From Roridomyces roridus (lineage: Eukaryota > Basidiomycota > Agaricomycetes > Agaricales > Mycenaceae): a stretch of DNA of 64,000 nucleotides. Of this stretch, positions 12,749 to 60,600 are shown in pieces; the first letter of the stretch is position 1; each line of letters starts with the position of its first letter. The notes under the pieces are model-generated. The model was given only the letters and a program-made list of their open reading frames with translations, ran no database searches and was not told where the DNA came from. The stretch spans positions 62,001 through 126,000 of the forward strand of contig JARKIF010000019.1 in assembly GCA_029378245.1 (NCBI GenBank), written 5' to 3'. The translations under genes and the position numbers were made by a program.

Positions 12749-12869
12749 CGTGGCGAACTCGAGGGTTTTTTCTCACTGCCACTGATATAGGGGCTCAGTT
12801 GATCGGATACGCAATTCTCTGCTCAAATCTAATCGCTAACCTGGAACCCGTTTTAAAAAGCTTCAGACT

Positions 12870-14380: not shown

Positions 14381-14692
14381 CGTGGTTGGTGAACAAAAGT
14401 TGTTGATCCAGGTGATCCGAGTCCCGCGTCTGCAGTTTCCGAGTCTGCGCGCAAGTCGCCCGCTCAATAGTGTATACAAGTGGGGATAGTGCTACATAGT
14501 AATGTGTGTGGCTAATGTACAAGATGCTTGGTCTAAGAGTTCGTGTGGTACAAAGAGAGGGGGAATAGATATGGGATAATTTATGTGAAGGGGCACGTGT
14601 CGATGCGAATGTGTGGTGTGATGCTTCTGAGGGAATCCGGGGCAGAGGGAGTGGATGAAGCGAAAAGAAAAATGTGCACGCGAAAGAAACCT

Positions 14693-15967
14693 TCAAGGGG
14701 CCCGACCCTTCCCCTTGTCAACCCTCGAGCCAGACGGCTGAGGTGTATTCTCGTCCGCTTCACGACGGTGCTTCGCCTCCACTCGGCACGGCGTTCTGGT
14801 CACACCCTGGCCACCAATATCACGCAAGGGGACGCGTCGTTGTCCTACGTGTTGCTGACCATCTACTGCCTCGTTTCGTTGCCCATCCGTTGCGTCCTGC
14901 AGCTGCTCTCCCACCGGTAGCGCCGTCGGCCCAGAGGAGACCCCGGCTGCGTGGATAGGGGGCACACCATCCAAAAGATGACGGATCATGGCCACCTGCT
15001 CAAGCAGGGTGAACTCCCAATAGACCCCCATGAGCTGTTCGAAGGCATCCAGGGCACGCTGAGCCGCTGGATCATCAAAGCGAGTTCGGACTACCGCCAC
15101 TGGATAATCCAGACGTCCGTCGGCGCCCATGAACATGACTGTCACGAAGATGCCAGCCTCGCCAATGAGGCGGCGAACGACGGCGGAACGAGCGACAGTA
15201 CCGAGAGCCCGCCAGCCTTGAACAAGGATACAGAAAGCACCGAGACCTTGCGCAAGACGAGTCTCGCGTTCTAGTGCGACAGCGGAGGACTCTGGGCGGG
15301 TATCTCCCCGGTTACGTGGCTGCCCAGCGAAGATCTGAGCGATGACGGACATATGCGAGTCAGCCGGGGATATTGGAACCACGGGAGAGTGGGGACGAGG
15401 CGGAGGAGATGAGGGCGGATTCAGCGTGATGGTAGGAATGACTTGGGGAAGGGGGTTTGCCTGTTGATCGACCAAGATGGGAGGAGCAGCGGGGAGCACA
15501 TGCGGGGCCTGCTGGATGAGGGGTCGAGGAGCGCGGACTCTGCGAGCATGTTGCTCTCGCCGCTGTGGCTTAGGACCGGAATTGTCGCGGCACATGACCG
15601 ATAGCGCACCAATCGTCAAGCCTATGAGAACGGCGAGGCCAAGGGCAAAGTATATTAGCCGCCGGTTGTTATCATCGCGATTGGGAGGCTTTGAGAATGG
15701 GTAGGCAACAGGGGCGAATGGCGCTGCGACCTCTCCTGGAGAGTCAAAGACCAACTCGGCAGGCGGGGAGTGCGACGCTGGATTGATGACCACGGCCCAG
15801 GTCAAAGCCAGTGCGGAAAAAATGTCCTGAGGCAAGGGAAGGGCGGAAAGAAGGTTTTGGGCGGCGGATATCGACCGGGTGAAAAGGTGGGATGGCAGGC
15901 TCTCGTCGAGGATCGTAGTACAAAGGAGAAGACCAAGCAGAAAGCTCAATATTTGAACGGGGTGCAT
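14693..15967 (-). CDS. L1: membrane protein of the divergent R/L pair 1
   Basis: I do not recognise the family. 424 residues from the ATG at 15967, in one exon. A hydrophobic N-terminus (VQILSFLLGLLLCTTIL) acts as signal or membrane anchor. A clear transmembrane segment near residue 115 (IYFALGLAVLIGLTIGALSV) is followed by basic residues and a long Pro-rich linker, then a helical region (ALDAFEQLMGVYWEF...MIRHLLDGVPP). The C-terminus keeps two short blocks shared with L3 and L3': RVPLRDIG and SRVDKGKGRAP. Transcribed away from R1, 153 bp apart, with the shared 17-bp promoter motif between them. Kinase pseudogene A4 follows 312 bp downstream on the same strand. Probably the partner of R1 at a membrane; this is inferred from arrangement only. 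Confidence 0.65.
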   Translation of the reverse strand: MHPVQILSFLLGLLLCTTILDESLPSHLFTRSISAAQNLLSALPLPQDIFSALALTWAVVINPASHSPPAELVFDSPGEVAAPFAPVAYPFSKPPNRDDNNRRLIYFALGLAVLIGLTIGALSVMCRDNSGPKPQRREQHARRVRAPRPLIQQAPHVLPAAPPILVDQQANPLPQVIPTITLNPPSSPPPRPHSPVVPISPADSHMSVIAQIFAGQPRNRGDTRPESSAVALERETRLAQGLGAFCILVQGWRALGTVARSAVVRRLIGEAGIFVTVMFMGADGRLDYPVAVVRTRFDDPAAQRALDAFEQLMGVYWEFTLLEQVAMIRHLLDGVPPIHAAGVSSGPTALPVGEQLQDATDGQRNEAVDGQQHVGQRRVPLRDIGGQGVTRTPCRVEAKHRREADENTPQPSGSRVDKGKGRAP

Positions 15968-16120: not shown

Positions 16121-17759
16121 ATGCCCTACTCGATTTCTGCCCTCTTCGCTCTCCCCCGCAGCTTCGCAGGCCTGTTCTTCGCTAGCAAGGTTGTCCACAT
16201 CCCAACGCCGTCGCCGCCTGTTGTCAAGTACACGCCGACTCGCACCACCCACATCTTCCTCGAGCCCACGCGATGCCTTCCAAGCCCCATCTCCAACGAC
16301 GCCCAGCTCCCCTACGTCATTATGGTTGGATTGGCCGCTCTCATTCTCGCCAGTGTCGTCTTCACCATTTGGTCGGCGTTCGCCCTTCGCCGTCGACGCC
16401 GCAGCCCAACTCTCCCTGCAGCACCACCAGAGTCCGACACCGAAGCGGAACCAGACGAATTCGACCCATGGCCGCCCTGGCTCATGTTCATATCGCTCAA
16501 TATCGCATTCCACCTCTCCTCCACCGTGACGGTTATCCAAGCGCCTCCCACCAAGAGCTTGTTTCCCGAGTTGATGCTATACCGCCTAGCAATGGTGCTC
16601 GAGGAGAGCGTTCTAAACGTCCTTAGCTTGATTGAACACCTCCCCAACCACGGCCTACAGTGTCTCCAGATTGTACTGCTCGCGATTGCCGGCCATTCCA
16701 TTGGGCTCCTCGTCGCCTTTCTTCATCGACGCGCCCTCTCCTTCATCCACCGCCGTCGGGAATGCCTCATCGACTTCGCTTTTGAATACTGGCCCGACTT
16801 CATTCCCATCATGGTACCCAGTATGCTCTTCGCCTTCCATCCGCACCTCGACTGGGCCATTTGGTCACTAAATTATATATTTTGGGCCGATTGTCATGTG
16901 CCAAGCCTCCGAGAGATTCACCGGGCGGTCGTACTGCTCTTACCCTCCGTTCCAATGGATACACTCGCTGTAAGTTTTTGGCTCGCAATCATCTACTTAT
17001 GCTGAATTGGTCGTTTGCCCAGCTGGTCGCCGGACCCTCGGCTTTCTACTTTATGATGGCCGCCCTTTGGACCACCGCCCTGTGTCTAGCTCGTGTTCCC
17101 ACTATGACTCGAGAAGCGTTTGAAGAGGTTTATTATATGAGGTCCTGCCTTCCTCAGATGTGCTGGAAGATCTGCATCGTCTTCAGCATCCTCTTTTGTC
17201 ATGCTACTCTTCAATTTTCCGTGCTCGAGGGAATCTCCATGGGATCCAGTGTCAAGGCCCGACTTGGAACTTTGGCCACTCAAGTTCTCTTTTCCGCGGG
17301 AGCACGAGCAGAAGTCTGGGAGCTCTACCAGCTGCCGAGGGACCGCCACAACGCATGGAGGATAGACCAGACTAAAGCGTTTGACGACCTCAAAGGGTTA
17401 TTGTGGTCGACGGTTTGTAGCACATGGGAGGCTTTGCCTTGGGCTCAGAAACTGGTAAGTCGCTGTCTGCCATACCGCGCACTTCTCTTACCCATCTTTC
17501 TAGCTCATCATCGCGCCTGTGGTTACAGTCTTCGTGCACTTTTACCTGGTATGTCTAGTCAAGTCATTCACTCATTTTTGACTCATCCTTGCGCAGATGC
17601 CGTGGATGATGCCCCGACTCCGATACTTCTGGATTTGGTTGAGGATGGAGTACGAGCTGTACCAGCGCCGACAGTACGTCTGCTCACCCTTTCCCGTCAA
17701 TTGTCTTCTGATCTTTCTCCAGAGCTGTGTACCGCTCATTACATTCAAACCTCGGTTGA
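16121..17759 (+). CDS. R1: multi-pass membrane protein of the divergent pair 1
   Basis: I do not recognise the family. Exons 16121-16969, 17023-17454, 17504-17548, 17597-17673, 17723-17759 (480 codons, 479 residues, all phases consistent). Hydrophobic segments include LPYVIMVGLAALILASVVF, LMFISLNIAFHLSSTVTVI, LQIVLLAIAGHSIGLLVAF, PSAFYFMMAALWTTALCL, ICIVFSILFCHATLQF and LIIAPVVTVFVHFYL, so roughly seven or eight membrane passes. A Glu/Asp-rich loop (SDTEAEPDEFDPWPPW) follows the first. The block CSTWEALPWAQKL before the third intron is identical in R1, R3 and R3'. The protein ends in Leu-Gly, as do all R copies (..NLG, ..KLG, ..LLG). Divergent from L1. Intact. Confidence 0.7.
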
Positions 17760-18570: not shown

Positions 18571-19662
18571 CTAAGCCTTGTCCGTCTCGTGACCGGGAGC
18601 AGCCTCGGGCACTCCATTCTCGCCAGGAGCCACAGTCGCAGGTGGCTGATTCTCCTCGCCGGCAGGAACCACTTTAACGTCGTCGGCCTCTCCCAACTGA
18701 CGCTGTGATCCGTCAGGAGTCCCGCCCCGCTGCTCCAGGCGAGCGAGAGGGAGTTCTGCCAACGCATGTCTGCGCGGGCGGCCGTCGGGGGGTGCCTGAG
18801 TGTCGGGGAGCAACGGAGCGCCGATGCCAGAGCCCAAAGCGACCTCGGCCTCCAGTTCCCGGGCGACAGTCGGGTCGAGGTGCGGCATGCGACCAAGGAT
18901 GCCTAGGAGCTACTGCCTCACTTCATCGGCAACTAAAAGCCGGATACGTTCCTCCATAGCATCTTGGGCGGCAGGTCCAGCTGGAGCTTGGATATGGGTT
19001 GACGAAGAGGCGGAGGCCCACCGTCGAGCTATTCCAAAAAGCACGATCCCGCTGAGGAAACATACGACCCCAATCACGAGGATATGCCCTCTCAAGGGTT
19101 CGAAGAGCGTGTAAAGATGAAGGAGCCCACGAGAACGCGAAGAGGGATTGCCCTCGTCGGAAGGATGGCCACGAGAGCTCGAAGTAGCTGTGACTGCCAG
19201 CGAGCCTACATCTGTAGGAGTGGCAGCGTCGGCTTCCGCAGAAACGCTCAAACGCGGGAGAGGAGCAGGCGTGACGGCTGGCGACCGAGTCGGGATCGCA
19301 CCGGAATTGGCACTTGGACGAGTGACGCCGTCTGGATGGGCGGCGAGGTACTGGGCGAAAATTTTGTCGGTGAGGGGTTGAGAGGGTCGTGCGACAATCA
19401 CGAATGCAGGAGACTCGCCCGAAATCGACACGAGAGGTAACTCGAACGAGTCGATGGTGTCCCAGTGACACCCGCCAAAGTGCTCTGCGAGCATCAGACA
19501 CGCGACGCGGTCTGGCGGCGGCACAATGACGCGAAGGGCCGATACAAGGTCCTCGCCGACTCTTGAGGCAAGAGTGAGGGTCGCAGGATCGCGAGGAAAC
19601 TCGGCAAGAAAGAGATAGGCAGACAGGGCGAGTAGCTTGAGGAACGTGTTTATGAGCAACAT
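18571..19662 (-). pseudogene. L2: membrane protein of pair 2, interrupted by one stop codon
   Basis: Same position and architecture as L1: hydrophobic N-terminus after the ATG at 19662 (LLINTFLKLLALSAYLFLAEF), Pro/Ser/Ala-rich middle, and a membrane segment (GHILVIGVVCFLSGIVLFGIA). The frame is open for 250 codons to a TAG at 18910-18912 (after VADEVRQ), then stays open in the same frame to 18571 (MPHLDPTVARELEAEV... to GHETDKA). This suggests a recent nonsense mutation, or a shorter natural end with a fortuitous open frame. Unlike L1 and L3 it lacks the RIPLRDIG and DKGKxRAP ends. Its promoter motif is at 19754, but R2 has been pushed about 1.9 kb away by an inserted element. Confidence 0.55.
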
Positions 19663-21689: not shown

Positions 21690-23317
21690 ATGCCCTACTC
21701 GATTTCTGCCCTCCTCGCTCTCCCTCGCAGCTTCGCCGGCCTGTTCTTCGCTAGCAAGGCTATCCACATCTCCACGCCGTCGCCGCCTGTTGTCAAGTAC
21801 ACGCCGACTCGCACCACCCACATCTTCCTCGAACCCACGCGATGCCTTCCAAGCCCTACATCGAGCGACGTCCAGCTCCCCTACGTCGCTATGGTTGGAT
21901 TGGCCTCCATCATTCTCGCCAGTGTCGTCTTCACCGTCTGGTCGACGTTCACCCTTCGCCGTCGACGCTGCAGCCCAACTCCCTCTGCAGCACCACCAGA
22001 GCCCGACCCCGAGACGAAACCAGACGAATTCGACCCATGGCCGCCCTGGCTCATGTTCATATCGCTCAATATAGCATTCCACCTCTCCTCCACCGTGACG
22101 GTTATCCAAGCGCCTCCCACCAAGAGCTTGTTTCCCGAGTTGATGCTATACCGCCTAGCAATGGTGCTCGAGGAGAGCGTTCTAAACGTCCTCGGCCTGA
22201 TCCAGCACATCCACAGCCAAGGCCGGCAGTATCTTAATATCACGCTGCTCACCCTCGTCGGTCATGCAATCGGCCTCCTCATCTTCTTCATCCATCGTCG
22301 ATGCACCATGCCCTTCCTCCGCCACTATCGCCTCGCCTTCAATCACATTTTCACAACGGCGTGTGCATTGTCTATTCCTATCATCATTCTCCTCTGGCAT
22401 CCGAATCTCAACAAGAGCTTCTCATTTTTCTACTACTCTTCCTCTCGAAGCCAATCTCTACAAGGATGGCTCCCGGATCTTCGATACATATGCCGCGATA
22501 TCCGGACCTTCCTTCAGTCGCTACCAGTCTTGCCTGCATCGGTCAGTCTATTCAGTGTCCATGCATCATTCCCTTACTTATCCACCTGGCAGATGGTCGT
22601 GGGTCCCGTGGCGATTTGCTCTGCTATTACCCTCCTACAAACAGTATTCTTTTTCCTCTGCGACGTCCCCTCCACGATCCGGACAATTCGGGAACGGGCC
22701 ATCCACCCGCGTCGCTTGGCCGTCTTCATCATCATTTGGACCGTTGCGGTCGTCATTTTCATTCAAGAGGCTGCTGTACCTCTCTTCATGATCGTGGAAG
22801 GAGAAACACTGGACGATACCGCCCTCAGACGAGTCTTTGACTTGGAATGCGAAGTGATGTGGACTGGGTGTCCCATAGCGCAAGCGGAGATATGGGAAAT
22901 CTTCCGTCCAGCTCTGGGGCGCTACGCGTACTGGAGATCCGGTCATATGAAAGAGTTTGGTCGCCTCGGACGGTTCCTGTCGGATACAGCGATAGAGCTT
23001 CCCCGGTCCCATCAACTGGTGAGTCTTCTGGCCCATGTGCTCAGCGGCTACTGACTTCTCTTCTCCTCAGCTTATTGTCGTGCCCATCTTTGTCTTTTGG
23101 GTCCTTTGCGGTTTCTTCTACATCGTACGTCTTGATTCGTCATCCACATGCATCAACTCATCTTCAATCAGAAACCTGTCCTGAAAAGAGTCGCAATGAG
23201 GATACGGTATTGGCACTGGCGCAATCAAAGAGAGAGGGAGAGGTGCGTTCTGAAAGTCACACCTTTTTCCTGGTCTGACTCGACCCTAGATATAGAGCCA
23301 TATCAAAGCTCGGTTGA
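21690..23317 (+). CDS. R2: multi-pass membrane protein of pair 2
   Basis: Family unknown; paralog of R1. Exons 21690-22541, 22593-23018, 23071-23124, 23172-23242, 23290-23317 (477 codons, 476 residues, phases consistent). The first 190 residues are close to R1 (start MPYSISALLALPRSFAGLFF, loop DEFDPWPPWLMFISLN); the second half is more diverged. Membrane segments include YVAMVGLASIILASVVF, ILLWHPNLNKSFSFFYY, VGPVAICSAITLLQTVFFFL, LAVFIIIWTVAVVIFI and LIVVPIFVFWVLCGFFYI. The first intron (51 nt) is free of stops, so a retained form would add 17 residues. Ends ..SKLG like its relatives. Separated from its promoter motif by the element at 19772-21654, so expression may be altered. Confidence 0.7.
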
Positions 23318-24034: not shown

Positions 24035-25640
24035 CTAAGTACTACATGTAGTCCTCAATGAAGGTGAATTTGCGGCGTCGCTGGCCGAGATGCGATCCCC
24101 AGGACTCCATCTCAACAGTTGTCGAAGCACCTGCAGGCAACCTCGCACCCGTTTCTCGTCTTCAAGTGCATCAAGAGGAGAAATTTCACTGGCAGCCATT
24201 ATCTTTCTCCGATCCGCTCGAGAATCAAGAGTATCCCGCTGTAGCCTGGTCCAGTTGCCATCGATGACAAGCGGGTCCGAGAGCGAATCATCAATCCTCA
24301 GAGCGCTCGCACATTCTTCCTTCCGATACGATCGCCAGTCGAGATTGGCGGTTTCCTCTAGCAGTAGCCTGTACCGCTCTGGCATTGGGCCGAGGTATTT
24401 GGCGACGTTCGTAAAGAATCCCGATCCCATAGACGCGCCCCGAAGAGGAAGATGCACTGGGTTTCATTCCGTACCAGGATCGAAAGGAGGGTGCAGCCGA
24501 TGACCCAGACGTCGCCTTGCGCAGACCAGTTGAGGTCCGAGACATCTCGAGATTCCAGAGCAAGTCGACCCTCTCTCACTCTCGAGGAGTTCCGACCAAG
24601 GGTGATTATTCGAGCTGTTCTCGGGAACGTCCTCCGGGGTCGAGGGAAGCCTCCTGCCAGGTATCATCTCCAAAAGATTACACTCTGGTGGCTTAGGTGG
24701 TCCGTGATGATATGGGTTCGGTGGCTCGTCTGTGACCGGCCGGAAGGAACAACCGAAATCGATTATTTTCACGACAAAGCACTGGGTGTCTGCGTTCGTC
24801 AATGTGAAATGTTGACAGAATTTGGCGCTCTCTACGACGTATGTTGGAAGAGGAGGTGGGTTGGAGGTGGGAGCCATAGGTAGAAGAGCGTGACAAACAG
24901 GATGCCCGGTGCTTTGCATGATCGCAGCGACGCCGGCGGTTCGTAAGAAAGGAAATTCGATGGCTATATTCCCAACATGCAAGTCTACAGACTTTTTAGC
25001 GGGTTTGGGTCGATTCAAGCAGCAAAAGCCAACCTCGATGTACGAAACCATGTTTATGGATGAATCCTAAACCTGCAAGCGTTTGTCGAAAAACTACGCG
25101 GTCATCCAGGCTATCCATGGCACTGGTATACAACACAGAAGACATGCGGAGGGCGGGCTCTGTAGCAATTACATCATGAATCCCATTGGGACCGTTTACC
25201 TGGAAGGTCTCCAAGCACAACGCGACGTTGTGAAAGCCAGGCTCCTCTTTCGACCGCGACGCCAGAAAGTTGTTGATTTCAACCTCGAGGGTCTTCCCGG
25301 TCTGATCAGAGGCTATGAACTTCAGCGCAGCCCCTCCATGCCCTGGACTGGAATAAGATTTAGACTTGACGAGAAGGGGAAGTAAATCCACGAACTGTGC
25401 TCGACTGAGGTTCTGGCCGTACCAAACGTGAGAGAAGCCGCCATATCCGAGTTTATGGAGTATTCGGTAGCCCTCACTGCCGGGTGACGAGGTCGGGAAA
25501 AAGTCATTGAGGTGCACTGGATGCAAGCCTCCGCTGGAATAGCGTTCTATGTTTTCGCCTTCACCGTCCCAGTCGACCCAGCCAGGCTCATACAGAAAGG
25601 GGTACTCGGAGTCGGAGTCGGAATCGGAGCTAGCGCTCAT
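24035..25640 (-). pseudogene. SRPK-like kinase A5, frameshifted
   Basis: Type-A kinase downstream of L3. Start MSASSDSDSDSEYPFLYE at 25640, GLHPVHLNDFFPT, LGYGGFSHVWYGQN, then a 51-nt stop-free intron, AALKF, HRDLHVGN across the next intron, KIIDFGCSF, KPPECN. One G is missing near 24572 in the run after LLESERG compared with A6 (agaggg against agagggg), so the frame breaks before DVSDLNWSAQGDVW. A second frame change lies near 24445 (around QCIFLFGA) and is shared with A6, so it predates the duplication. The end reads RQLLRWSPGDRISASDAAN. Confidence 0.75.
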
Positions 25641-25865: not shown

Positions 25866-27074
25866 TCAAGGAGCCCTGCACTTGCCCTTGTCAACCCTCG
25901 AGCAGAACGGCTGGGGAGGCGCGTTTTCGTCATCACCGCCACCGTGCTTCGTCGTCTCGGCCAGCGGCGTCATCTTCATCCCAGGCTGCTTTCCAATATC
26001 ACGCAGGGGAATCCGCTGCCTCTGCTGGTGCTTTGCATCCCTATGCTGCTGTTTCTCAGCCTGCGGCGCAGTTGACTGTGATGTATCCTGCCCGACCGCA
26101 GCGATGCTGGGAGCGCCGTTGAGCAGGTGGCGGAGTATAGCGTCTTGCTCAACATCCGTGAACTCCCAATACGCGGCCATGAGCTGCTCGAATCCCGCCA
26201 GAGCACAATCGGCCACTGCAGCATCCACACGACTGCGGACCACAGCCATCGGGTATGCGAGATGTCCACAGGAGTCGACGAAACCGGTGGCCACACAGAA
26301 TCTGACATTGCTGATGAGGTGCCAGACAATAGCAAAGCGGGCGCAGCGACTTAGGGCGTACCAGCCTCTGTGAACAGCGCGAAGGCCGTCCAGGGCTTGG
26401 GTGAGACGCCTGTGCCGTTCGAGTGCAGCGGCAGAAGACCCGGCACGAGAAGCTTCTGGGTTGCGGAGTCGGCAGGCAAAAAGGTCGGCCATAATGGAGG
26501 GGTACGACTCGGGAGAGGAGGAGCTGTTGGAAGGAGGACAACTGGATGATGGGGATGGATTCGACGCGACGAGGAGGGTGCAAGGCTGAGAGCTGCACGA
26601 CGGGGACGCGACGACAGGAACAGCAGTTTCTGTGACGTAGTCATCAACCAAAACGACTAGCTCTTTGGCAGGCTGTTCGGGCTGGCGAGGGCTCGAGCAG
26701 CGCACTCCGACCAGATACATCCCGCCAACGAAACCAAGCAGAACGGCGACGATTGCGATATAAAGACCCAAATCGCTCGCTGGGTTCACCTCGTCATCGT
26801 AAGGTTGCGGAATGTTTGAAATAGCAGGGACGTCGGAGACGAGGGGGTTGAAGGAGGGTTCGCTCACTACGTCGGCTTGGAGGGATACTACCCAGGCCAG
26901 CGCGAGCGAATAGAGTTCGGCCGGCTGAGGGATGAAATTTATGAAATTTTGCGCGCCGGCGAGCGCAAGTTGAGTGCGAAAAGAGGACGGTTGGTGGCCG
27001 TGCCTCACGACGATATTGACGAAATCGAGAAACAAAACTTGGAGGATGTATTCAATAATTTGGAATGCAGCCAT
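25866..27074 (-). CDS. L3: membrane protein of pair 3
   Basis: Family unknown; 402 residues in one exon. N-terminal hydrophobic stretch (FQIIEYILQVLFLDFVNIVV), then LGLYIAIVAVLLGFVGGMYLVG as the main membrane segment near residue 125, a Ser/Pro-rich linker, and a helical domain (LERHRRLTQALDGLRAVHRG...FEQLMAAYWEF) that corresponds to LERETRLAQGL...FEQLMGVYWEF in L1. C-terminal blocks RIPLRDIGKQ and SRVDKGKCRAP. Divergent from R3 (133 bp between start codons), with A5 226 bp downstream on the same strand. Its near-identical copy is L3' at 56001-57176. Intact. The frame is also open upstream of the chosen ATG through the promoter region, so a longer start cannot be excluded. Confidence 0.65.
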   Translation of the reverse strand: MAAFQIIEYILQVLFLDFVNIVVRHGHQPSSFRTQLALAGAQNFINFIPQPAELYSLALAWVVSLQADVVSEPSFNPLVSDVPAISNIPQPYDDEVNPASDLGLYIAIVAVLLGFVGGMYLVGVRCSSPRQPEQPAKELVVLVDDYVTETAVPVVASPSCSSQPCTLLVASNPSPSSSCPPSNSSSSPESYPSIMADLFACRLRNPEASRAGSSAAALERHRRLTQALDGLRAVHRGWYALSRCARFAIVWHLISNVRFCVATGFVDSCGHLAYPMAVVRSRVDAAVADCALAGFEQLMAAYWEFTDVEQDAILRHLLNGAPSIAAVGQDTSQSTAPQAEKQQHRDAKHQQRQRIPLRDIGKQPGMKMTPLAETTKHGGGDDENAPPQPFCSRVDKGKCRAP

Positions 27075-27162
27075 GTCTGCGAGATGTGAGTGAACTGCGG
27101 AGAGTGGGCTGGGTGGGACGAACCGTGAAAATGAAAGTGAAGGACAAGTCACGGTAAACAAC

Positions 27163-27179: not shown

Positions 27180-27207
27180 CATTACATCTTGATTCAGTAC
27201 CACCACC

Positions 27208-28811
27208 ATGCCTTCGCTTCTTGCCCTCTTCTTCATAACCCGCATGTCCGCCGGCCTGTACTCCGCCGGCCATTACCTCTTCGCGCCGTCGCAGCCTGTT
27301 CCCCCGCCGACTCGCACCACCCCCATCTTCCTCGAGCCCACACCATGCCTTCCAAGCCCGACTTCCAGCGACGCCCAGTTCCCCTACGTCGTTATGTTAG
27401 GATTGGCCACCGTTGTCCTCGCCAGTGTCGCCTTCACCATATGGTCGACCTTCAAAGACGCTCGTCGTCCACCAACGGCAGCCGTACCACCAGAGCCCGA
27501 CACAGAATTCGACACAGAGCCTGATACAGAGCCCGACCCACGGGATTACACGCGCATAATGTCATTCCTGGTCGCGTTCTTCATGACCATTTGCGCCTAC
27601 GTGTCCACCTTGTCGACCACCAAGACGCCCGACAGTTTGTTTTTGGAATCACCATCCACGGCCTCGTACAGACGGTCGAGCACCAAATACAGTATGGCCT
27701 CGGCCTTCTCCAGCATCTCCACGACTACGGCCTGCAGTATCTCAAGATTGCAGTGCTCGCGATCGTCGGCCATTCCGTCGGCCTCCTCGTCGTGTTCACC
27801 TATCGACACGCCCTTTCCTTCACCCACCACCATAGGACCCGCATAATTACCTCCGTCCGTGAATATTGGAGAGACTCAAGCCTGTTTCTCGTCCCCCTTC
27901 TCTTTTGTCTCTGGCATCCGCAGCTGAATTGGTCCTTCTGGATACATTATTATTTTACTTCCCGCGACGCGCATATTCCAAACCTCGAACAAATCCGTCT
28001 CAATCTCGTGGGGTCCCTCCCTTCGATCCCATTGGCCACCATCTCGGTCAGTCTCTTCTAACTCTTCCGATATTCACGAGTTCTGAAACACATACCAGGT
28101 GATCTTGGGTCCTGTTGCATTGTACTCTGCCGGGATCGCCCTTAGCACCGTGCTCCTCATTATCCCTTGTCTACCATCAGCCATATCGGCCGCCATCCAA
28201 GAGGTGTACTATACACAACACTTCACCCTCATTCGGCAATATACCTGCGCCACCACCGTCCATTGCTTCATGGCGACACTCGCCTTTATGGCGCAAGAAT
28301 TGAAACCTATGGGGAGTGACGTGGAACGATGGCTCGTCGATCGGCTCAAGAAAGTATTCTTTTGCTCAAGAGCACGGTCGGAAATTTGGGAGCTTTTCCG
28401 GCCGGCGAGGGAGAGTCACAGGGAGTGGAGGATCGCTCAGAGTAGGGAGGCGTTCAAGATTGTGCGATTGTTATGGACAACCGCTTGCTCAACATGGGAA
28501 GCGTTGCCCTGGGCCCAGAAATTGGTGAGTGTCTCTCTTCGTTAACATTGCTCGCGCTCATTATGTTTTAGCTCGTTGTCGCACCTGCCGCCGCCTTTTA
28601 TAGCTACTTCTATATTGTGAGTCTCTTCTGCCATTTACCGTAATTTCACTCATCTATCCTAGATACCCCTGGTGGATCGCATTGAACTTCTAATCCGGAT
28701 AGAGTATTGGAAGTATCGACGTCGGCGGTATGTCCGCCAGCCATTCACCGTTGTCCCTTCCTCACATTGCTCCAGGGCAGTCCGTCAATTTCACACAAAC
28801 TACTCGGTTGA
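27208..28811 (+). pseudogene. R3: multi-pass membrane protein of pair 3, one-base frameshift
   Basis: Exons 27208-28046, 28099-28524, 28572-28616, 28663-28727, 28781-28811, laid out exactly as in the intact copy R3' (54260-55864). The first exon lost one T near 27645 (gtttgtttttgg against gtttgttttttgg in R3'), so the frame breaks after TPDSLF and resumes as ITIHGLVQTVEHQI in another frame. Downstream it keeps LKIAVLAIVGHSVGLLVVF, GPVALYSAGIALSTVLLII, CSTWEALPWAQKL and the end ..HKLLG. The deletion is in a homopolymer, so a sequencing error is possible. Confidence 0.7.
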
Positions 28812-29650: not shown

Positions 29651-31185
29651 TTATTTTTCTGTGAAAAACGGGGACTCGAGTGCCTCTTTCGCCTGGATAC
29701 GATCCTCCGCATTCCATCTCAGCATCTGCTTGACAAGTGAAAGGAACCTCTGCACATCCTTGGTATCCCTCTCAACTCGATCCAGTTCGTCTTCGGGACT
29801 CAGCAGTCTTCGAGGAGCGCGAGCAGCGACAATGGATGTTTCGAGGGTCTTCCAATTGGTGGAGATTTCAAACCTCTCGTCTTCGGACTCATTGGGTAGG
29901 GACATGTGAGTGTCGGAATGATGGAGCGTCGCGTTATCGTCCAACAGGCAACGATAAATTTCTGGTATGGGGCCGAGAAGTTTGGCCATCTCGGCGCCGA
30001 GGGGCGAAGAGGTAGCACCGTCAAAAAGACTCTGGCTTGTGCGAGAATATATCTCCACCAGAGGTGCAGCCCAGGGTCCATATGTCACTCTGGGAAGTCC
30101 ATACTTTTTCTGGTATCAACTGAGGAAGGTGGATTTCGGAAACAAGACACTCTGGAGCGGTGAGAGTTCGACGCGGTTTGCCCTCTGGGAGCGCATCGCT
30201 AGACCCAGGACGGAAGGCGCAGCCAAAGTCCACGATTTTGACGACCAAAGGAGACGCGTCCTTGTAGTGATGTCGATGAGCGGCCAGAGCTGGACTGCTT
30301 TGGACGATATACTTGGGCAAAGAGCGAGGATGCTCGACCGCATCGCTCAGAATGCAGGGGAAAATGATGGGAGGGTCGTTTTCAGTAAGATCCATAATGC
30401 CTGCCGTACGAAAGAGAGGGATCTCGATTCCAATGTTTCCACAGTGCAAATCTAAGCGTAGCACTGAGTGAAAAATCAGAGAACGGCGGGTTAAGAAAGA
30501 TCTACCTCTGTGGACAACACCGTTTTCGTGCAAAAAGGAGACTCCCTGGAAGATTTGTCGAACGATGTCAGTTTCGTCCAAGTCTTCCAAAATCTTCCAC
30601 GTGCAGAGAGCAGGAATGAATACCAAGGCATCCGAAACAATAACGTTGTGCACGCCATTGGGTCCTTCGACTCGGAATGTGTCGAGACAGGGGAGGATAT
30701 TCCTGGAACCAGCTTCACCCGCCGCCAAGGTCGTGAGGTACTTGTGGATCTCAATTTCGAGAGTTCTCTCACTGGCCTTGGCCTCCATAAATTTCAGGGC
30801 CAGCGGACGAGATAATGGCCTTGACGAATGTGAGTAAAGTTTGAAGAGGCTAAGGAGAATGAATGGGCCTACTCTGCCGCCGTAGTGTCCTCTGCAAGCC
30901 AGACATGAGACGAGCTCCCAAAACCCAACTTGTTGAGGATGCGATATTGTCCATTATTGTATCGTTCGGTGAAGTGGACTGGATGCAATCCTCCAGGGTG
31001 GTAGCGAGACTGTAGACAGGGGCTCGAGGTCTCTTGAAGAACTTGGCAGCCCCAGGTAAGTACTCCAGATTTTGTGTACCGTCCGGAACGGATAACGACG
31101 CGGTCTCGCGGTAAATCTGAGATTGCAGACGACTATCGAATTTTCTGGATTCCTTTTCGGCTTCGGAGACCTCAAGTTTCGACAT
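29651..31185 (-). pseudogene. SRPK-like kinase B3, frameshifted
   Basis: Type-B kinase lying 75 bp downstream of A3 on the same strand. Start MSKLEVSEAEKES at 31185. A 7-nt insertion near 31010-31017 (gcgagactgtagacagg against gcgagacagg in B1) breaks the frame just before GGLHPVH. The middle is normal: LALKFMEAKAS, HENGVVHRD, LHCGNIGIEIP, VVKIVDFGCAF, APECLVSE. A second indel (one extra base) lies at about 30060-30064 inside GCTL, followed by the right frame to KQMLRWNAEDRIQAKEALES and a stop at 29651. Closest to B4. Confidence 0.75.
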
Positions 31186-31260
31186 CGTGATGGTAGAGAG
31201 CAAGATTTGCAATCAATGAGTCACATTCGTCTTGCATTCAACCTGCATTTATACCAGTGT

Positions 31261-32838
31261 CTAAGTACCAAGTTGCGGCCAAGGAAGTGCTGCTACGTCG
31301 CTCGCTTTGATACGATCCTCGGGACTCCATCCCAACATTTGACGAATCACCTCCAGGCAAAGTCGCACCCGTTTCCTGTCTTCCTCCTCGCTAACATCAT
31401 CATAGGACGGGCTCTGTCCATCAACGGCCCAGGGACCTGCCACTCCTCTCGTTCTCCACGAACGCCGGAAATCCAGGACCTCCTTTTCGAGCTGAACCCA
31501 ATTGTTCTCGATCACATGAGGATCTGCCAGAGAAGGGTCAATATCCAAGGCTCTCGCGCAGTTGTCGGAGTCCCATGGCCACTCCAAGTCCGTCCCCACG
31601 AGCTCCTGCAGAAGGAGCTTGTAGCGGTCAGGCATTGGCCCCATGTATTTGGCGATAGCGTGGAAGAGGGCCGCTCCACCTTCATACCCGCTCTGGAAGA
31701 TATGATCCCATTGGCCTCGGTCCCGAAGCAGGATCGTAAAGAAGGTGCATCCAAGGATCCAGATGTCGCCTTGAGTAGACCAAACCAGATCAGAGAGGTC
31801 TCTCGGCTGGATGTCGGCTTCGCTGGCGGAGCTGGTATCGCTCGTGCGTGTCTGCACAGTTGCCACAAAAGACTTGTTCTCCCTGGTTATCATGGCCGGG
31901 AGATTACATTCAGGGGGCTTGAGAATAGGTCGTTCTTCGTCCGAGTTCGGCAATTCGTGGACCCCAACTCGAAACGAACGCCCAAAATCAATGATTTTCA
32001 CGTTGAAAGATGCTTGCGTCTTCATCAAAGGCGTTAAACGCCCACAAAACTTGGCATTCTCCACGAGATATGTCGGAATGGAAGGAGGTTCAGCCGGTAG
32101 CTGCGTCGGTACAAAGGCGTGGCATCTAGGGCGTCCGGAGCCATTCATAAGCTCAGGGACTCCAGCGGTTCGGAGAAAGGGAAATTCGATGGCCATATTC
32201 CCGAGGTGCAGGTCTACAAGAACTTGGTATAAGTATTCGAATTTCGAGGATACTCCGAATTCGTACCGCGGTGCACGACACCATGTGTATGAAGAAACCC
32301 CACGCCTGAAAGAGCTTGCTCAAAAATGAGGCGCTCATCGAGATGTTCCATCACATCGTTGTAAAATAGGTCAAGGAGGAGTATGGCGGGCTCAGAGATG
32401 ATAACATCGTGAATGCCGTTCGGCCCGCTCACTTGGAATGTATCCAAGCACAGAGCAAAGTTTTGGAATCCGGGATCTCCGCGAGAGCGCGACGCTAGAT
32501 ATTCGTTGACTTCGGCCTCATGGGTCTTGCGAGTCTGATCAGCGGCGACGAATTTTACCGCAACACCGCGGTGCCCAGGACTGAAACGGAGCTGTAAGAC
32601 GCCTACAAAACTGCGAGAAAAATTGTCCAAACTGCGCTTGATCGAGATTCTGGCCTAACCAAACGTGAGAGAAGGACCCGAAGCCTAGTTTGTGGAGTAT
32701 GCGATAGCGGCCATTGTGTGAAGCTGAGACGACGTCGTTCAGGTGCACGGGATGTAGCCCACCCACGACATAGCATTCTATCTCTTCAATGTCTGACCGG
32801 AATCGAGCAGAATACAGAAACGGATCCCTTGAGCTCAT
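31261..32838 (-). CDS. SRPK-like kinase A3, intact single kinase
   Basis: Ser/Thr kinase of the SRPK-like expansion; SRPKs phosphorylate Arg-Ser repeats, but substrates of this branch are unknown. Exons 32838-32633, 32580-32267, 32213-31261 (491 codons, 490 residues). Lead-in GGLHPVHLNDVV, glycine loop LGFGSFSHVW (51-60), catalytic Lys78 in VAVKF, HRDLHLGN with Asp174 and Asn179 formed across an intron, DFG at 249-251, and KPPECN in place of APE. The HRDLHxGN loop and the short N-terminus with HPVH mark the family. It ends RQMLGWSPEDRIKASDVAALP, and the stop falls just where the fused genes continue into a B kinase. B3 follows 75 bp downstream. The only undamaged A copy not fused to a B kinase. 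Confidence 0.82.
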
Positions 32839-38718: not shown

Positions 38719-38826
38719 AGCAATTACCCGACTTGGAATACACGAACGTGTGTCCCAAAGTCCGTTAAGTAGTCGCGACGGGATGTGGCCGCCGTCATTT
38801 CCTCTTCTCCCGCCGTTCTCTCAAAA

Positions 38827-53798: not shown

Positions 53799-53929
53799 GT
53801 CCATAGTTTGTAGCGGTTCAGATGATAGATTCGAGCATTATAGATAGTACACGGAGGAAATATAGAGAAATAAGTAGAGGGATGAAAATGAAGAGAGATG
53901 GAAATGGGTGCAAGCTCATGCGGCTGCGG

Positions 53930-54259
53930 GTATAATGTAACTCGGCGGTCGGAAAACGGACGAAAAATCAGACGATCCAAGCACTGCTCGCACTGCAGAC
54001 AACGAAGGGTCAGACATGTGGGGCAGAAAGTGGAAGGAAGAACGCACACGTCAAGGACCAAACACCGCTTTAGGATCTTGAAGGTAGGACAGGAAGCTTG
54101 CTGGTGGCGAAAAAAGTTGGGCGTCCCCGACAGTCTTCATGGCCGCACCGGTAGCCTCCCTCTTGGCCCTCCGTATGGTATCCTCTCTCGCGGTGTTTGA
54201 ACTCGGCGCTGCGTTAGGCACTTCTTCTGGTCGTCTAGTTGTTCGCCGCAAGCCGATTC
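53930..54259 (-). other. Conserved 3' tail of R3'
   Basis: Same non-coding tail as after R1, R2 and R3, in reverse orientation. Confidence 0.4.
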
Positions 54260-55864
54260 TCAGCCGAGTAGTTTAGGTGAAATTGGCGGACTGCCCTGGA
54301 GAAATGTGAGGAAGGGACAACGGTGAATGACTGGCGGACATACCGCCGACGTCGATACTTCCAATACTCTATCCGGATTAGAAGTTCAATGCGATCCATC
54401 AGGGGTATCTAGGAGAGATGAGTGAAATTACGGTAAATGGCAGAAGAGACTCACGATATAGAAGTAGCTATAAAAGGCGGCGGCAGGTGCGACAACGAGC
54501 TAAAACATAATGAGCGCGAGCAATGTTAACGAAGAGAGACACTCACCAATTTCTGGGCCCAGGGCAACGCTTCCCATGTTGAGCAAGCGGTTGTCCATAA
54601 CAATCGCACAATCTTGAACGCCTCCCTACTCTGAGCGATCCTCCACTCCCTGTGACTCTCCCTCGCCGGCCGGAAAAGCTCCCAAATTTCCGACCGTGCT
54701 CTTGAGCAAAAGAATACTTTCTTGAGCCGATCGACGAGCCATCGTTCCACGTCACTCCCCATAGGTTTCAATTCTTGCGCCATAAAGGCGAGTGTCGCCA
54801 TGAAGCAATGGACGGTGGTGGCGCAGGTATATTGCCGAATGAGGGTGAAGTGTTGTGTATAGTACACCTCTTGGATGGCGGCCGATATGGCTGATGGTAG
54901 ACAAGGGATAATGAGGAGCACGGTGCTAAGGGCGATCCCGGCAGAGTACAATGCAACAGGACCCAAGATCATCTGGTATGTGTTTCAGAACTCGTGAATA
55001 TCGGAACAGTTAGAAGAGACTGACCGAGATGGTGGCCAATGGGATCGAAGGGAGGGACCCCACGAGATTGAGACGGATTTGTTCGAGGTTTGGAATATGC
55101 GCGTCGCAGGAAGCAAAATAATAATGTATCGAGAAGGACCAATTCAGCTGCGGATGCCAGAGACAAAAGAGAAGGGGGACGAGAAACAGGCTTGAGTCCC
55201 TCCAATATTCACGGACGAAGGTAATTATGCGGGTCCTATGGTGGTGGGTGAAGGAAAGGGCGCGTCGATAGGTGAACACGACGAGGAGGCCGACGGGATG
55301 ACCGACGATCGCGAGCACTGCAATCTTGAGATACTGCAGGCCGTAGTCGTGGAGATGCTGCATAAGGCCGAGGGCGTGTTGGAGTTGGTCCTCGACCGTG
55401 TGTACGAGGCCGAGGATGGTGATTCCAAAAAACAAACTGTCGGGCGTCTTGGGAGTCGACAAGGTGGACACGTAGGCGCAAATGGTCATGAAGAACGCGA
55501 AGATGAACGACAGCAGTCGTGTGCGATCCCGTGGTGTTATGTCGGGCTCTGTATCAGGCTCTGTGTCGGGCGCTGGTGGTAAGGCTGCCGTTGGTGGATG
55601 ACGAACACCTTTGAAGGTCGTCCATATGGTGAAGGCGACACTGGCGACGATAACGGTGGCCAATCCAAACATAACGACGTAGGGGAACTGGGCGTCGCTG
55701 GAAGTCGGGCTTGGAAGGCATGGTGTGGGCTCGAGGAAGATGGGGGTGGTGCGAGTCGGCGTGGACTTGACAACAGGCGTCGACGGCGTGAAGAGGTAGT
55801 CGCCAGCGAAGATCAGGCCGGCGGAGATGCGGGTGACGAGGAAGAGGGTAAGAAACGAAGGCAT
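54260..55864 (-). CDS. R3': multi-pass membrane protein, intact copy
   Basis: Family unknown. Exons 55864-55025, 54972-54547, 54499-54455, 54408-54344, 54290-54260; 469 codons, 468 residues. Start MPSFLTLFLVTRISAGLIFAG. Hydrophobic segments: YVVMFGLATVIVASVAF, LLSFIFAFFMTICAYVSTL, LKIAVLAIVGHPVGLLVVF, LFLVPLLFCLWHPQLNWSF, GPVALYSAGIALSTVLLII, LVVAPAAAFYSYFYI. The acidic repeat EPDTEPD follows the first membrane segment. CSTWEALPWAQKL and the end ..KLLG are family features. Divergent from L3' with 136 bp between start codons. Unlike R3 it keeps six T at the site of the R3 frameshift. Confidence 0.72.
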
Positions 55865-55893
55865 GGTGGTGGTACTGAATCAAGATGTAAATG

Positions 55894-55910
55894 ATCAACA
55901 AACGCGTCGC
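55894..55910. promoter_or_regulatory. 17-bp bidirectional promoter motif, pair 3'
   Basis: Reverse complement of GCGACGCGTTTGTTGAT; same place between L and R start codons as in pair 3. Confidence 0.6.
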
Positions 55911-56000
55911 GTTGTTTACCGTGACTTGTCCTTCACTCTTCCATCTTCACGGTTCGTCCCACCCAGCCCACTCTCCGCAGTTCACTCACATCTCGCAGAC

Positions 56001-57176
56001 ATGGCTGCATTCCAAATTATTGAATACATCCTCCAAGTTCTGTTTCTCGATTTCGTCAATATCGTCGTGAGGCACGGCCACCAACCGTCCTCTTTTCGCA
56101 CTCAACTTGCGCTCGCCGGCGCGCAAAATTTCATAAATTTCATCCCTCAGCCGGACGAACTCTATTCGCTCGCGTTGGCCTGGGTAGCATCGCTCCAAGC
56201 TGACGCAGTGAGCGAACCCCTCGTCTCCGACGTCCCTGCTATTTCAAACATTCCGCAACCTTACGATGACGATTTGACCCCAGCGAGCGATTTGGGTCTT
56301 TATACCGCAATCGTCGCCGTTCTGCTTGGTTTCGTTGGCGGGATGTATCTGGTCGGAGCGCGCTGCTCGAGCCCTCGCCAGCCCGAACAGCCTGCCAAAG
56401 AGCTAGTCGTTTTGGTTGATGACCACGTCGCAGAAATTGCTGTTCCTGTCGTCGCGTCCCCGTCGTGCAGCTCTCAGCCTTGCACCCTCCTCGTCGCGTC
56501 CAATTCATCCCCGTCATCCAGCTCCTCTCCCGAGTCGTACCCTTCCATTATCGCCGACCTCTTTGCCTGCCGACTCCGCAACCCAGAAGCTTCTCGTGCC
56601 GAGTCTTCTGCCGCTGCACTCGAACGGCACAGGCGTCTCACCCAAGCCCTGGACGGCCTTCGCGCTGTTCACAGAGGCTGGCACGCCCTAAGTCGCTGCG
56701 CCCGCTTTGCTATTGTCTGGCACCTCATCAGCAATGTCGGATTCTGTGTGGCCACCGGTTTCGTCGACTCCTGTGGGCATCTCGCATACCCGATGGCTGT
56801 GGTCCGCAGCCGTGTGGATGCTGCAGTGGCCGATTGTGCTCTGGCGGGGTTCGAGCAGCTCATGGCCGCGTATTGGGAGTTCACGGATGTTGAGCAAGAC
56901 GCCATACTCCGCCACCTGCTCAACGGCGCTCCCAGCATCGCTGCGGTCGGGCAGGATACATCACAGTCAACTGCGCAGCAGGCTGAGCAACGGCAGCATA
57001 GGGATGCAAAGCACCAGCAGAGGCAGCGAATTCCCCTGCGTGATATTGGAAAGCAGCCTGGGATGAAGATGACGCTGCTGGCCGAGACGACGAAGCACGG
57101 TCGCGGTGATGACGAAAACGCGCCTCCCCAGCCGTTCTGCTCGAGGGTTGACAAGGGCAAGTGCCGGGCTCCTTGA
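56001..57176 (+). CDS. L3': membrane protein, intact copy
   Basis: 391 residues, near-identical to L3 (402) apart from small in-frame deletions (for example VSEPLVSDVP against VSEPSFNPLVSDVP, and loss of a Ser/Pro stretch in the linker). Same membrane segments (IIEYILQVLFLDFVNIVV; LGLYTAIVAVLLGFVGGMYLVG), the helical segment LERHRRLTQALDGLRAV, and C-terminal blocks RIPLRDIGKQ and SRVDKGKCRAP. That all indels are multiples of three suggests selection on the frame after duplication. A6 starts 226 bp downstream on the same strand. Confidence 0.66.
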   Translation: MAAFQIIEYILQVLFLDFVNIVVRHGHQPSSFRTQLALAGAQNFINFIPQPDELYSLALAWVASLQADAVSEPLVSDVPAISNIPQPYDDDLTPASDLGLYTAIVAVLLGFVGGMYLVGARCSSPRQPEQPAKELVVLVDDHVAEIAVPVVASPSCSSQPCTLLVASNSSPSSSSSPESYPSIIADLFACRLRNPEASRAESSAAALERHRRLTQALDGLRAVHRGWHALSRCARFAIVWHLISNVGFCVATGFVDSCGHLAYPMAVVRSRVDAAVADCALAGFEQLMAAYWEFTDVEQDAILRHLLNGAPSIAAVGQDTSQSTAQQAEQRQHRDAKHQQRQRIPLRDIGKQPGMKMTLLAETTKHGRGDDENAPPQPFCSRVDKGKCRAP

Positions 57177-57401
57177 AGGTTTCTTTGGCAAGGAATTTTT
57201 TCTTTTCACTACTTTCTGCCCGGATTTTACATAGCAGCACCACACCACCCATCGCATCGACATCGCATTGTACATTTACTACACCGCAGCATCACCTGTA
57301 TCCATTAGCACATCCTATTCAAGATCATCGAGTTTTCCGGCAAGCAGCTGTCTGACAAATAGGGGCGAATCCGGGCTGCAGCTTTTCTTCAGCAACCACG
57401 A

Positions 57402-59041
57402 ATGAGCGCTAGCCCGATTCCGACTCCGACTCCGAGTACCCCTTTCTGTATGAGCCTGGCTGGGTCGACTGGGACGGTGAAGGCGAAAACATAGAACGCT
57501 ATTCCAGCGGAGGCTTGCATCCAGTGCACCTCAATGACTTTTTCCCGACCTCGTCACCCGGCAGTGAGGGCTACCGAATACTCCATAAACTCGGATATGG
57601 CGGCTTCTCTCACGTTTGGTACGGCCAGAACCTCAGTCGAGCACAGTTCGTGGATTTACTTCCCTTCCTCTCGTCGCTAAATTTCCATAGGCTCTGCTCA
57701 GACCGGAAGACCCTCGAGGTTGAAATCAACAACTTTCTGGCGTCGCGGTCGAAAGAGGAGCCTGGCTTTCACAACGTCGCGTTGTGCTTGGAGACCTTCC
57801 AGGTAAACGGTCCCAATGGGATTCACGATGTAATTGCTACAGAGCCCGCCCTCCGCATGTCTTCTGTGTTGTATACCAGTGCCATGGATAGCCTGGATGA
57901 CCGCGTAGTTTTTCGACAAACGCTTGCAGGTTTAGGATTCATCCATAAACATGGTTTCGTACATCGAGGTTGGCTTTTGCTGCTTGAATCGACCCAAACC
58001 CGCTAAAAAGTCTGTAGACTTGCATGTTGGGAATATAGCCATCGAATTTCCTTTCTTACGAACCGCCGGCGTCGCTGCGATCATGCAAAGCACCGGGCAT
58101 CCTGTTTGTCACGCTCTTCTACCTATGGCTCCCACCTCCAACCCACCTCCTCTTCCAACATACGTCGTAGAGAGCGCCAAATTCTGTCAACATTTCACAT
58201 TGACGAACGCAGACACCCAGTCGTTTGTCGTGAAAATAATCGATTTCGGTTGTTCCTTCCGGTCAGCCACAGACGAGCCACCGAACCCATATCATCACGG
58301 ACCACCTAAGCCACCAGAGTGTAATCTTTTGGAGATGATACCTGGCAGGAGGCTTCCCTCGACCCCGGAGGACGTTCCCGAGAACAGCTCGAATAATCAC
58401 CCTTGGTCGGAACTCCTCGAGAGAGAGAGGGGTCGACTTGCTCTGGAATCTCGAGATGTCTCGGACCTCAACTGGTCTGCGCAAGGCGACGTCTGGGTCA
58501 TCGGCTGCACCCTCCTTTCGATCCTGGTACGGAATGAAACCCAGTGCATCTTCCTCTTCGGGGCGCGTCTATGGGATCGGGATTCTTTACGAACGTCGCC
58601 AAATACCTCGGCCCAATGCCAGAGCGGTACAGGCTACTGCTAGAGGAGACTGTCAATTCCGACTCGTATCGGAAGCAAGAATGTGCGAGAGCTCTGAAGA
58701 TTGATGATTCGCTCTCGGACCCTCTTGTGATCGAGGGTAACTGGACCAAGCTAGAGCGGGATACTGTTGATTCTCGGGCGGACAGTCGGCGGAGATCTAG
58801 AGAGAGAAGCAACAGCTCCAGTCGCGGCAGCTCCAGCCGCGGTAGTACTCGAGGAGGCAGGGGCCACAGCACCAGACCGGCTAGAACTTCTCCTCCAAGT
58901 GTGGAAGAACTTGAGGACGAGAAACAGGTGCGAGGTTGCGTGCAGGTGCTTCGACAACTGTTGAGATGGAGTCCTGGGGATCGCATATCGGCCAGCGACG
59001 CCGCGAATTCACCTTCATTAAGGACTACATGTAGTACTTAG
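57402..59041 (+). pseudogene. SRPK-like kinase A6, frameshifted and lacking the catalytic lysine region
   Basis: Copy of A5. One T is lost near 57412 (agcccg against agctccg), so the start MSAS leaves the frame of DSDSEYPFLYEP. About 40 bp around the first intron acceptor are missing: the protein goes from LSRAQ to LCSDRKTLEVEI, dropping the stretch with AALKF. Downstream HRDLHVGN, KIIDFGCSF and KPPECN are intact, and DVSDLNWSAQGDVW is in frame here. It shares with A5 the frame change at QCIFLFGA (near 58550). The C-terminal lobe contains an extra Arg/Ser/Gly-rich stretch at about 58780-58890 (RSRERSNSSSRGSSSRG), absent from A5. Confidence 0.8.
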
Positions 59042-59107
59042 CACAGATGGTCGAATTATGTGACTCTTGCATGTTGTGATCCGATATTTTCTCTGCTCCT
59101 TCTCGCC

Positions 59108-60600
59108 ATGGTGTCCCCAGATCTCCGCCTGCGATACCAGCTTATGACGGAAACGGACACACTCTCCGACGCCGTGGACCCAGCCCGCGAGTACATTTGG
59201 GAGCTACCAAACCCTCCCAGAGAACTCGAGCCCCTAACTCGGTACCATGCTGGGGGATTACACCCAGTGCACCTGGCCGACATGTACAATGGTGCTCGAT
59301 ATCGCATCGTGAATAAACTGGGATTCGGGAGCTCGTCGCACGTCTGGCTTGGGGAAGACACTACTGCAAAACAGTGAGTGGGTCTCAGAATTTACTTTGA
59401 TTTAACACCCAAGCTAATCCCCGATTTCCAGACGGCCAACTCGTCCGTTGGCCTTGAAATTCATCGAGGCTAAGGCCAGTGAGAGAACGCTCGAGATTGA
59501 AATCCACAAGTACCTCTCAGCTGCGGCGGGTGAAGCTGGTTCCAAGCATATCCTCCCTTTTCTCGACACATTCCGAGTCGAAGGACCCAACGGCGTGCAC
59601 AATGTAATTGTTTCCGACGGCGCTTTGGCATTCATTCCGGCCCTGTGCAAGTACAAGATTCTAGAAGACTTGGACGAGACTGAAATTGTTCGACAAATCT
59701 TTGAGGGTGTCGCCTTTTTGCATGAAAACGGTGTCGTCCACAGAGGTAGGCCTGGCGCACACAACAGCTCTCTAGTAATTTTCACTCATTAGTACCCCAG
59801 ATTTGCACTGTGGAAACATTGGGATCGAGATCCCCTTCTTTCGTACGGCGGGCATTAGGAAGCTCACGTATGGGGACCCTCCAATCATTTTCCCGAGCAC
59901 CCTGTGCGAGGCCGTCGAGCATCCACCCTCTGTCCCAAAATATATCGTCCAGAGTAGCCCCGCTCTCGTTGACCGATACCAATACAAGGATGCGCCCGGC
60001 GGCCCGTTGGTCGTGAAACTCGTCGATTTCGGCTGTGCCTTCCGACCTGGGACTGACTCGGTGTTTCCAACCGGCAGCCCACGTCGAACGCTCGCCGCTC
60101 CAGAGTGTCTTGTTTCCGAAATCCATCTTCCTCCGTCGGTGCCAGAAAAAGTCTGGACTTTCAAGAGCGACATATGGACCTTGGGATGCACGCTAGTCGA
60201 GCTATACTCTCGCTTGGGTCATAGTCTGTTTGACGGTGCTGGCTCTTCGTCCCTCGGCGCCGAGATGGCCAAACTTGTCGGCCCCATACCGGACATGTAT
60301 CATTGCTTGCTGGACGATAATGCAACGCTCCATCATTCCGACACGCACAACGCACAGTCCGACGCCGACACGGAGGAGGATGATATTCCCGCCAATTGGA
60401 AAACCCTCGAAACATCCCTTGTCGCTGCACGCACTCCACGGCATCCGCCGAGTGCCGAAGACGAGCTGAAGCGCGTCGACCGGGATACCAAGGATGTGCA
60501 GAGGTTCCTCCCATTGATCAAGCAGATGTTGAGATGGAACGCGGAGGATCGTATCCAAGCGAGCGAGGCACTCGAGTCTTCGTTTCTCGTGGAAAAATAA
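59108..60600 (+). CDS. SRPK-like kinase B4, intact
   Basis: Exons 59108-59373, 59432-59745, 59801-60600; 460 codons, 459 residues. Lead-in GGLHPVHLADMYNGARYRIV, glycine loop LGFGSSSHVW (71-80), catalytic Lys98 in LALKF, HRDLHCGN with Asp194 and Asn199 formed across an intron, DFG 269-271, APE 293-295. GCTLVELYSRLGHSLF is the place where B1, B2 and B3 are each frameshifted. Ends KQMLRWNAEDRIQASEALESSF. It lies 66 bp downstream of A6 on the same strand, completing an R-L-A-B module. The only undamaged B copy; substrate unknown. Confidence 0.85.

Follow-up and report, generated by a model that had tools for sequence, protein, structure and literature searches.

Divergent membrane protein gene pairs beside a local array of SRPK-like kinases in Roridomyces roridus

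The window analyzed here, a stretch of 64,000 nucleotides corresponding to positions 62001-126000 of contig C101 in the 90.8-Mb Roridomyces roridus (Mycenaceae) assembly, carries a block of four genes at 54.2-60.6 kb. Two of them, R and L, encode membrane proteins and are transcribed divergently; two kinase genes, A and B, follow downstream of L. Proteins from the locus are deposited under Roridomyces roridus. A first-pass annotation of the window proposed R-L-A-B as a repeatedly co-duplicated functional unit. Our analysis indicates that the conserved unit is probably the divergent R-L pair and not R-L-A-B, with a kinase linkage most likely devoid of shared function.

Distribution and history of the R-L pairs

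The following features make up the blocks in which R, L, and A stand in order, together with the related R2 and L2 genes and the two arms of an inverted duplication.

12891..14386 (ends approximate), minus strand: A4, SRPK-like kinase with an in-frame TGA near 14220 and a TAA near 13210 (similarity, alignment)
14696..15967, minus strand: L1, 424 amino acids (similarity, open frame)
16121..17520 (end approximate), plus strand: R1 (similarity search)
18913..19662, minus strand: L2, of a different L type, with a stop after 250 amino acids (open frame)
21690..23100 (end approximate), plus strand: R2 (similarity search)
24056..25637 (ends approximate), minus strand: A5, SRPK-like kinase with frameshifts near 24577 and 24447 (frameshift-tolerant alignment)
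25869..27074, minus strand: L3, 402 amino acids (similarity)
27208..28600 (end approximate), plus strand: R3, FB45DRAFT_931596 (similarity, deposited protein)
54235..55864, minus strand: R3', membrane protein of 478 amino acids in 5 exons, FB45DRAFT_931646 (spliced model, hydrophobic segments)
56001..57176, plus strand: L3', 391 amino acids, single exon, start 136 bp from the R3' start (open frame)
57403..59041, plus strand: A6, disrupted SRPK-like kinase domain (similarity, frameshift-tolerant alignment)
59108..60600, plus strand: B4, fully open SRPK-like kinase of 459 amino acids in 3 exons (Pkinase PF00069 at 71.1 bits; best PDB relative Sky1)
53813..58782, no strand: inverted-duplication arm, partner 24213-29244, 93.4% identity
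24213..29244, no strand: second arm of the inverted duplication, partner 53813-58782

Similarity searches place four R, three L (L1, L3, and L3'), six A-type, and four B-type copies where the first-pass annotation had put them, in the same orientations. The order R3' (minus), L3' (plus), A6 (plus), B4 (plus) was likewise correct, and a complete R-L-A-B series is present at 54.2-60.6 kb, but it occurs once only and its A6 is disrupted.

Across the assembly, R was found at 60 places, 26 of them on C101 and the remainder spread over ten contigs. This count merges 64 matches with three new or longer ones from a second search (67 together), the other second-search matches overlapping by eye, and some of the 60 places, e.g., those on C46 and C111, are probably duplicates within the assembly. 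The A and B kinases were found at 12 places, all in a ~70-kb stretch (C101:52.8-122.6 kb). Of the 60 R places, four have an A or B kinase within 1.8 kb, all of them in that stretch; for the R place next in distance on C101, the gap is 27 kb. Weaker SRPK-like matches (E ≤ 0.01) fell on contigs that lack any R match (C90, C480, C112, C141, C334, C108, C491, C68, and C2), and seven flanks of R copies elsewhere gave no A/B-like match better than E = 0.1. A Pkinase family search of the genome scored 123 of 856 candidates, short of an exhaustive count. The kinases cannot be upheld as part of the unit, since no R copy outside C101:78-118 kb has, among the kinases that these searches recovered, an A/B or other SRPK-like neighbor. 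What we see within the R. roridus genome is R and L away from kinases and a linkage that fits a local duplication history, the pattern that the annotation itself had named, for other genomes, as speaking against its proposal.

The pairing of L with R has a different distribution. All 14 distinct L genes recovered stand head-to-head with R, on C101, C493, C223, and C379; they come from two merged searches, one with 9 matches and one with 12, the latter including 8 genes of a second L type. Thirty R loci were inspected for divergent open reading frames, and in 23 the R start could be recognized by pattern. A divergent frame of at least 280 amino acids adjoins R in 16 of these 23 (a count made without a control), 15 of the 16 starting 136-268 bp from R, and the remaining 7 have none that long. 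Among the 7 loci with no recognized R start, the one at C101:415420 (L011) has an L. The R gene there has an isoleucine codon in place of the usual start methionine. As a unit, the proposed R-L-A-B therefore survives in its divergent R-L half, which recurs on four contigs, whereas its kinase half was not found beyond one locus of this genome. The spacing of the starts suggests a shared promoter and a two-part membrane complex.

The first-pass annotation had also read the blocks as repeated co-duplication, and R-L-A indeed occurs in order three times. R3'-L3'-A6, however, is an inverted ~5-kb copy of R3-L3-A5 (93.4% identity over 5,083 columns). Those two blocks derive from a single duplication and are not independent, so that the three blocks represent two lineages. 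The arms are unevenly similar: identity ranges from 86% within a portion of the R first exon to 100% further along R, a pattern more suggestive of recombination or conversion than of even decay.

Phylogenetic analysis was performed with 29 R sequences (L011, L023, and L032 were unreadable and were left out) and 20 L sequences. In the R tree, R3 and R3' group with five copies lacking a nearby kinase (0.997), and R1 groups with R2 and a copy at C101:150 kb (0.984). In the L tree, L1, L3, and L3' form one clade (0.925), and the L genes paired with R3 relatives at C493:41 and 46 kb are of a different L type. A4, A5, and A6 form one clade in the kinase tree (1.0). The R and L trees thus conflict for the kinase-linked pairs: L1/L3/L3' and A4/A5/A6 are each clades but R1 and R3 sit in separate R clades, both with members that lack a kinase. 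This is most simply explained by local copying of an L-A segment that came to stand beside different R genes. At the 5' end, R1 and R2 share 89% identity over 639 bp; the sole further match listed for the two is located downstream (79% over 365 columns). Since the likeness is strongest at the 5' end, this part of R is a likely exchange point.

Identity and integrity of the kinases

The remaining kinase copies are arranged as follows.

6363..9413, minus strand: A1-B1, one open frame joining both kinase domains; B1 frameshift near 6739 (alignment)
9751..12754, minus strand: A2-B2, one open frame joining both kinase domains; B2 frameshift near 10128 (alignment)
29653..32829, minus strand: A3, which is open, and B3, frameshifted near 31016 and 30062, with stops between them (alignment)
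C101:52.8-55.9 kb, just left of the window: A0-B0, a seventh A and a fifth B (similarity)

The assignment of A and B as SRPK-like holds, the closest PDB relatives of A1 and B4 being SRPK1, SRPK2, and Sky1. All 13 matches listed for A1 at E ≤ 1e-5, and the first 13 of the 60 listed for B4, are SRPK or Sky1. Both proteins exceed the Pkinase cut-off in Pfam, and the core motifs (ATP lysine, HRD, DFG) are present in A1, A2, A3, and B4.

Integrity was judged by alignment tolerating introns, frameshifts, and stops, on one assembly with no reads. A1, A2, A3, and B4 are open; single frameshifts occur in A0, B1, and B2, and two each in B0 and B3. All three A copies directly beside R-L pairs (A4, A5, and A6) look disrupted, and the open A copies stand outside those blocks. 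A6 is missing one base after its start, has a ~50-bp gap relative to A5 that removes the ATP-lysine codon and the splice acceptor, and is frameshifted later on. Downstream of this frameshift, at ~58776-58900, A6 holds an SR/RS-rich insertion that is absent from A5. In B1, B2, and B3, distinct one-base indels (near 6739, 10128, and 30062) fall within ~16 bp of a common B-domain site, beyond which the sequence is still under purifying selection. This cluster may reflect decay, sequence error, or splicing; B2 does carry a good donor for an extra intron that could hide the frameshifts, though splicing there would not restore B3.

In A1-B1, A2-B2, and A0-B0, A has no stop of its own and the frame continues across a linker of ~60-65 codons to enter B exon 1. 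The junction is open in all three although their lengths differ, and its ratio of nonsynonymous to synonymous substitution rates (dN/dS) is 0.52-0.69; the values for A exon 3 are 0.37-0.44. Stops separate the domains in A3-B3 and A6-B4. Judged from these frames, A-B is best read as a tandem double-kinase gene in three of the five pairs; frameshifts further on in the joined frames (A0, B0, B1, and B2) count against this. A0 groups with A2 (0.993) and then A1 in the A tree, and B0 with B2 and then B1 in the B tree, where the three together reach 0.997.

The R and L proteins and competing explanations

The events behind the present arrangement can be outlined as follows. R and L, with starts ~140-270 bp apart, would probably be driven by a common promoter and work jointly in a two-part membrane complex, and the pair has expanded to dozens of copies in this species. 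One L gene probably landed upstream of a kinase copy within the local kinase array, after which the L-A segment would have been copied locally (L1-A4, L3-A5) and L3'-A6 copied later, along with R, by the 5-kb inverted duplication. Different R genes would have become partners of the L-A segment, possibly through recombination within the conserved 5' end of R, and the A copies attached to R-L pairs would have decayed.

Several observations weigh against this account. The shared promoter is argued from spacing only, L is very divergent, and support in the L tree is moderate. L and A were copied at least twice without being separated. The aligned parts of A5 and A6 are nearly identical, so that their decay is partly common and the three disrupted A copies do not amount to three independent losses, and some A/B lesions could be sequence errors or be spliced around. 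Open A2 and A1 (in A2-B2 and A1-B1) stand directly behind R1-L1-A4, as open B4 does behind A6, and the kinases near these two R-L pairs may, from their open frames, be working. The B domains are under purifying selection, with dN/dS of 0.12-0.29 before the frameshift site and 0.23-0.52 after it.

The competing explanations depend in part on what R and L are. The spliced model of R3', with four introns of 46-52 bp, is identical to deposited FB45DRAFT_931646. R3 changes frame near 27642, which may be a frameshift or, as the shorter deposited model implies, an intron. R carries several hydrophobic segments, and residues near its N terminus are conserved in 10 of 10 aligned copies. None of seven full-length R proteins matched a Pfam family (five searched at E ≤ 1, two at E ≤ 0.1). 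Identity as an STE3-type pheromone receptor is unsupported, as none of the seven matched a receptor family in Pfam, and a weak TctB match of R exon 1 (E = 0.0096, below the cut-off) was set aside, full-length R giving none. The AlphaFold model of R is poor, with a mean predicted local distance difference test (pLDDT) score of 42.2. Two R copies at C101:236041-236835 and 243189-243983 are inverted and do not differ in score, identity, or the length of their open frames, which points to a very recent inverted duplication.

L begins with an N-terminal hydrophobic segment, followed after an intervening stretch by a membrane pass and then by a proline/serine-rich part and a helical domain. In L3' the hydrophobic segments are at residues 5-23 and 100-118, and AlphaFold gives a helical domain at about residues 201-310 (pLDDT 80-94 in blocks of ten). 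Across the 20 L sequences, the N-terminal segment is present in 18 and the later one in 18. A Foldseek comparison of the L model with the PDB returned 28 matches at E ≤ 10 and 0 at E ≤ 0.001. L has no Pfam family above the cut-off; a weak match to OHCU_decarbox (E = 0.059, below the cut-off) was set aside. L2 exists as an open frame, as had been annotated, but it is of a different L type, unmatched by L3' in a similarity search of the window. It resembles the L at C101:150 kb (61% over 122 amino acids), and its start is ~2 kb away from that of R2. The L adjoining R at C223:1093281 (L036) contains an internal TAA; judging by this and by the isoleucine codon of the R at C101:415420, some R-L pairs elsewhere in the genome may also be decaying.

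R and L could be fast-changing halves of a self/non-self or surface recognition receptor that swap partners, with the kinases as bystanders, an alternative we regard as rather unlikely. It would fit dozens of copies with no match outside the species at the sensitivity of our searches, in which all matches listed were to this species or the window itself (9 for one R sequence, 11 for one R profile, and 2 for one L sequence). Because those searches depend on 5-residue words in common and scored ~8,000 candidates apiece, more distant relatives could have escaped them. The high divergence among L copies, the conserved residues near the N terminus of R, and the conflicting R and L trees would also agree with it. 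Against it, dN/dS between recent copies is below 1 overall (0.57 for L; 0.81 and 0.78 for the R first exon, the second having a single change), with only the middle third of L at 1.05, on 16 changes, and no known recognition domain was found in the Pfam searches. Doubtful is the wider reading that R and L form a two-part system for surface recognition, originating in or near Roridomyces and expanded to dozens of head-to-head pairs, which diversifies as recombination in the conserved 5' end of R sets L cassettes beside different R genes, and which neighbors an SRPK-group branch of tandem double kinases (A-B fusion).

It is improbable that R-L-A-B is a true module in which R and L signal through the SRPK-like kinases and selection holds the linkage. 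Such a module would account for the threefold R-L-A order and the complete R-L-A-B, for open B4 and the purifying selection on B, for the L1/L3/L3' and A4/A5/A6 clades, and for open A2 and A1 close behind R1-L1-A4. It is opposed by the absence of an A/B kinase within 27 kb of 56 of the 60 R places, by the disruption of all three directly linked A copies, by the origin of two of the three blocks in one duplication, and by B adjoining A in one block only. RS/SR dipeptides, the usual targets of SRPK, number 1-12 per R or L protein (a count without a background rate). That the R-L pair is a selfish or mobile element (e.g., killer/immunity) and not a host function is highly improbable. Its many dispersed copies and the two equal-scoring inverted R copies at C101:236 and 243 kb would speak for such an element; the local clustering of many copies, which tandem and segmental copying predicts, speaks against it.

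We therefore favor the divergent R-L pair as the conserved unit. The analysis separates a probable chance linkage, that of R-L with the kinases, from a real unit, the pair itself, which offers a tractable case for the origin and diversification of paired membrane complexes in mushrooms.

Other features of the window were noted in passing. Inverted copies (77-81%) of part of a gene that, from its letters, looks like actin lie at 2981-4049 and 50284-51261 and flank the kinase/R/L region. The tandem gene copies at 38823-40654 and 41634-43493 (80% identity) look like transporter genes, and the open frame at 37030-38820 looks reverse-transcriptase-like, both names being assumed from the letters. 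An exact 24-base TTAGGG pattern occurs once in the assembly, on a contig other than C101, and speaks neither for nor against a subtelomeric location.

Comparison with known systems

Among the matches listed in the open-access literature, there was no description of the R-L family, the A-B fusion, or the R/L-kinase linkage. Head-to-head gene pairs with bidirectional promoters are divergent with starts less than 1 kb apart (PMC2648788, PMC3303733), as R and L are. R-L differs from those pairs in that the pair itself forms a multicopy family, encodes two orphan membrane proteins, and has apparently exchanged partners.

Plant tandem kinase proteins (PMC10260399, PMC11006675) have two kinase domains per reading frame, as A-B does. 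They belong to another kingdom, and A-B shares with them a resemblance without sign of an immune role. Expansion of SRPK-like (SRPKL) kinases is known in a fungal lineage, Fusarium, and the function of the SRPK group in fungi is described as little known in one paper (PMC6001611). A1 and B4 match SRPK2, SRPK1, and Sky1 best among solved structures, but the catalytic loop reads HTDIKPEN in Sky1 and HRDLHxxN in the A/B kinases here, and A reads PPEC where B reads APEC. In contrast to SRPK and Sky1, A and B are here joined by an open frame in three pairs, and these joined kinases provide a testable double-domain form of the SRPK group.

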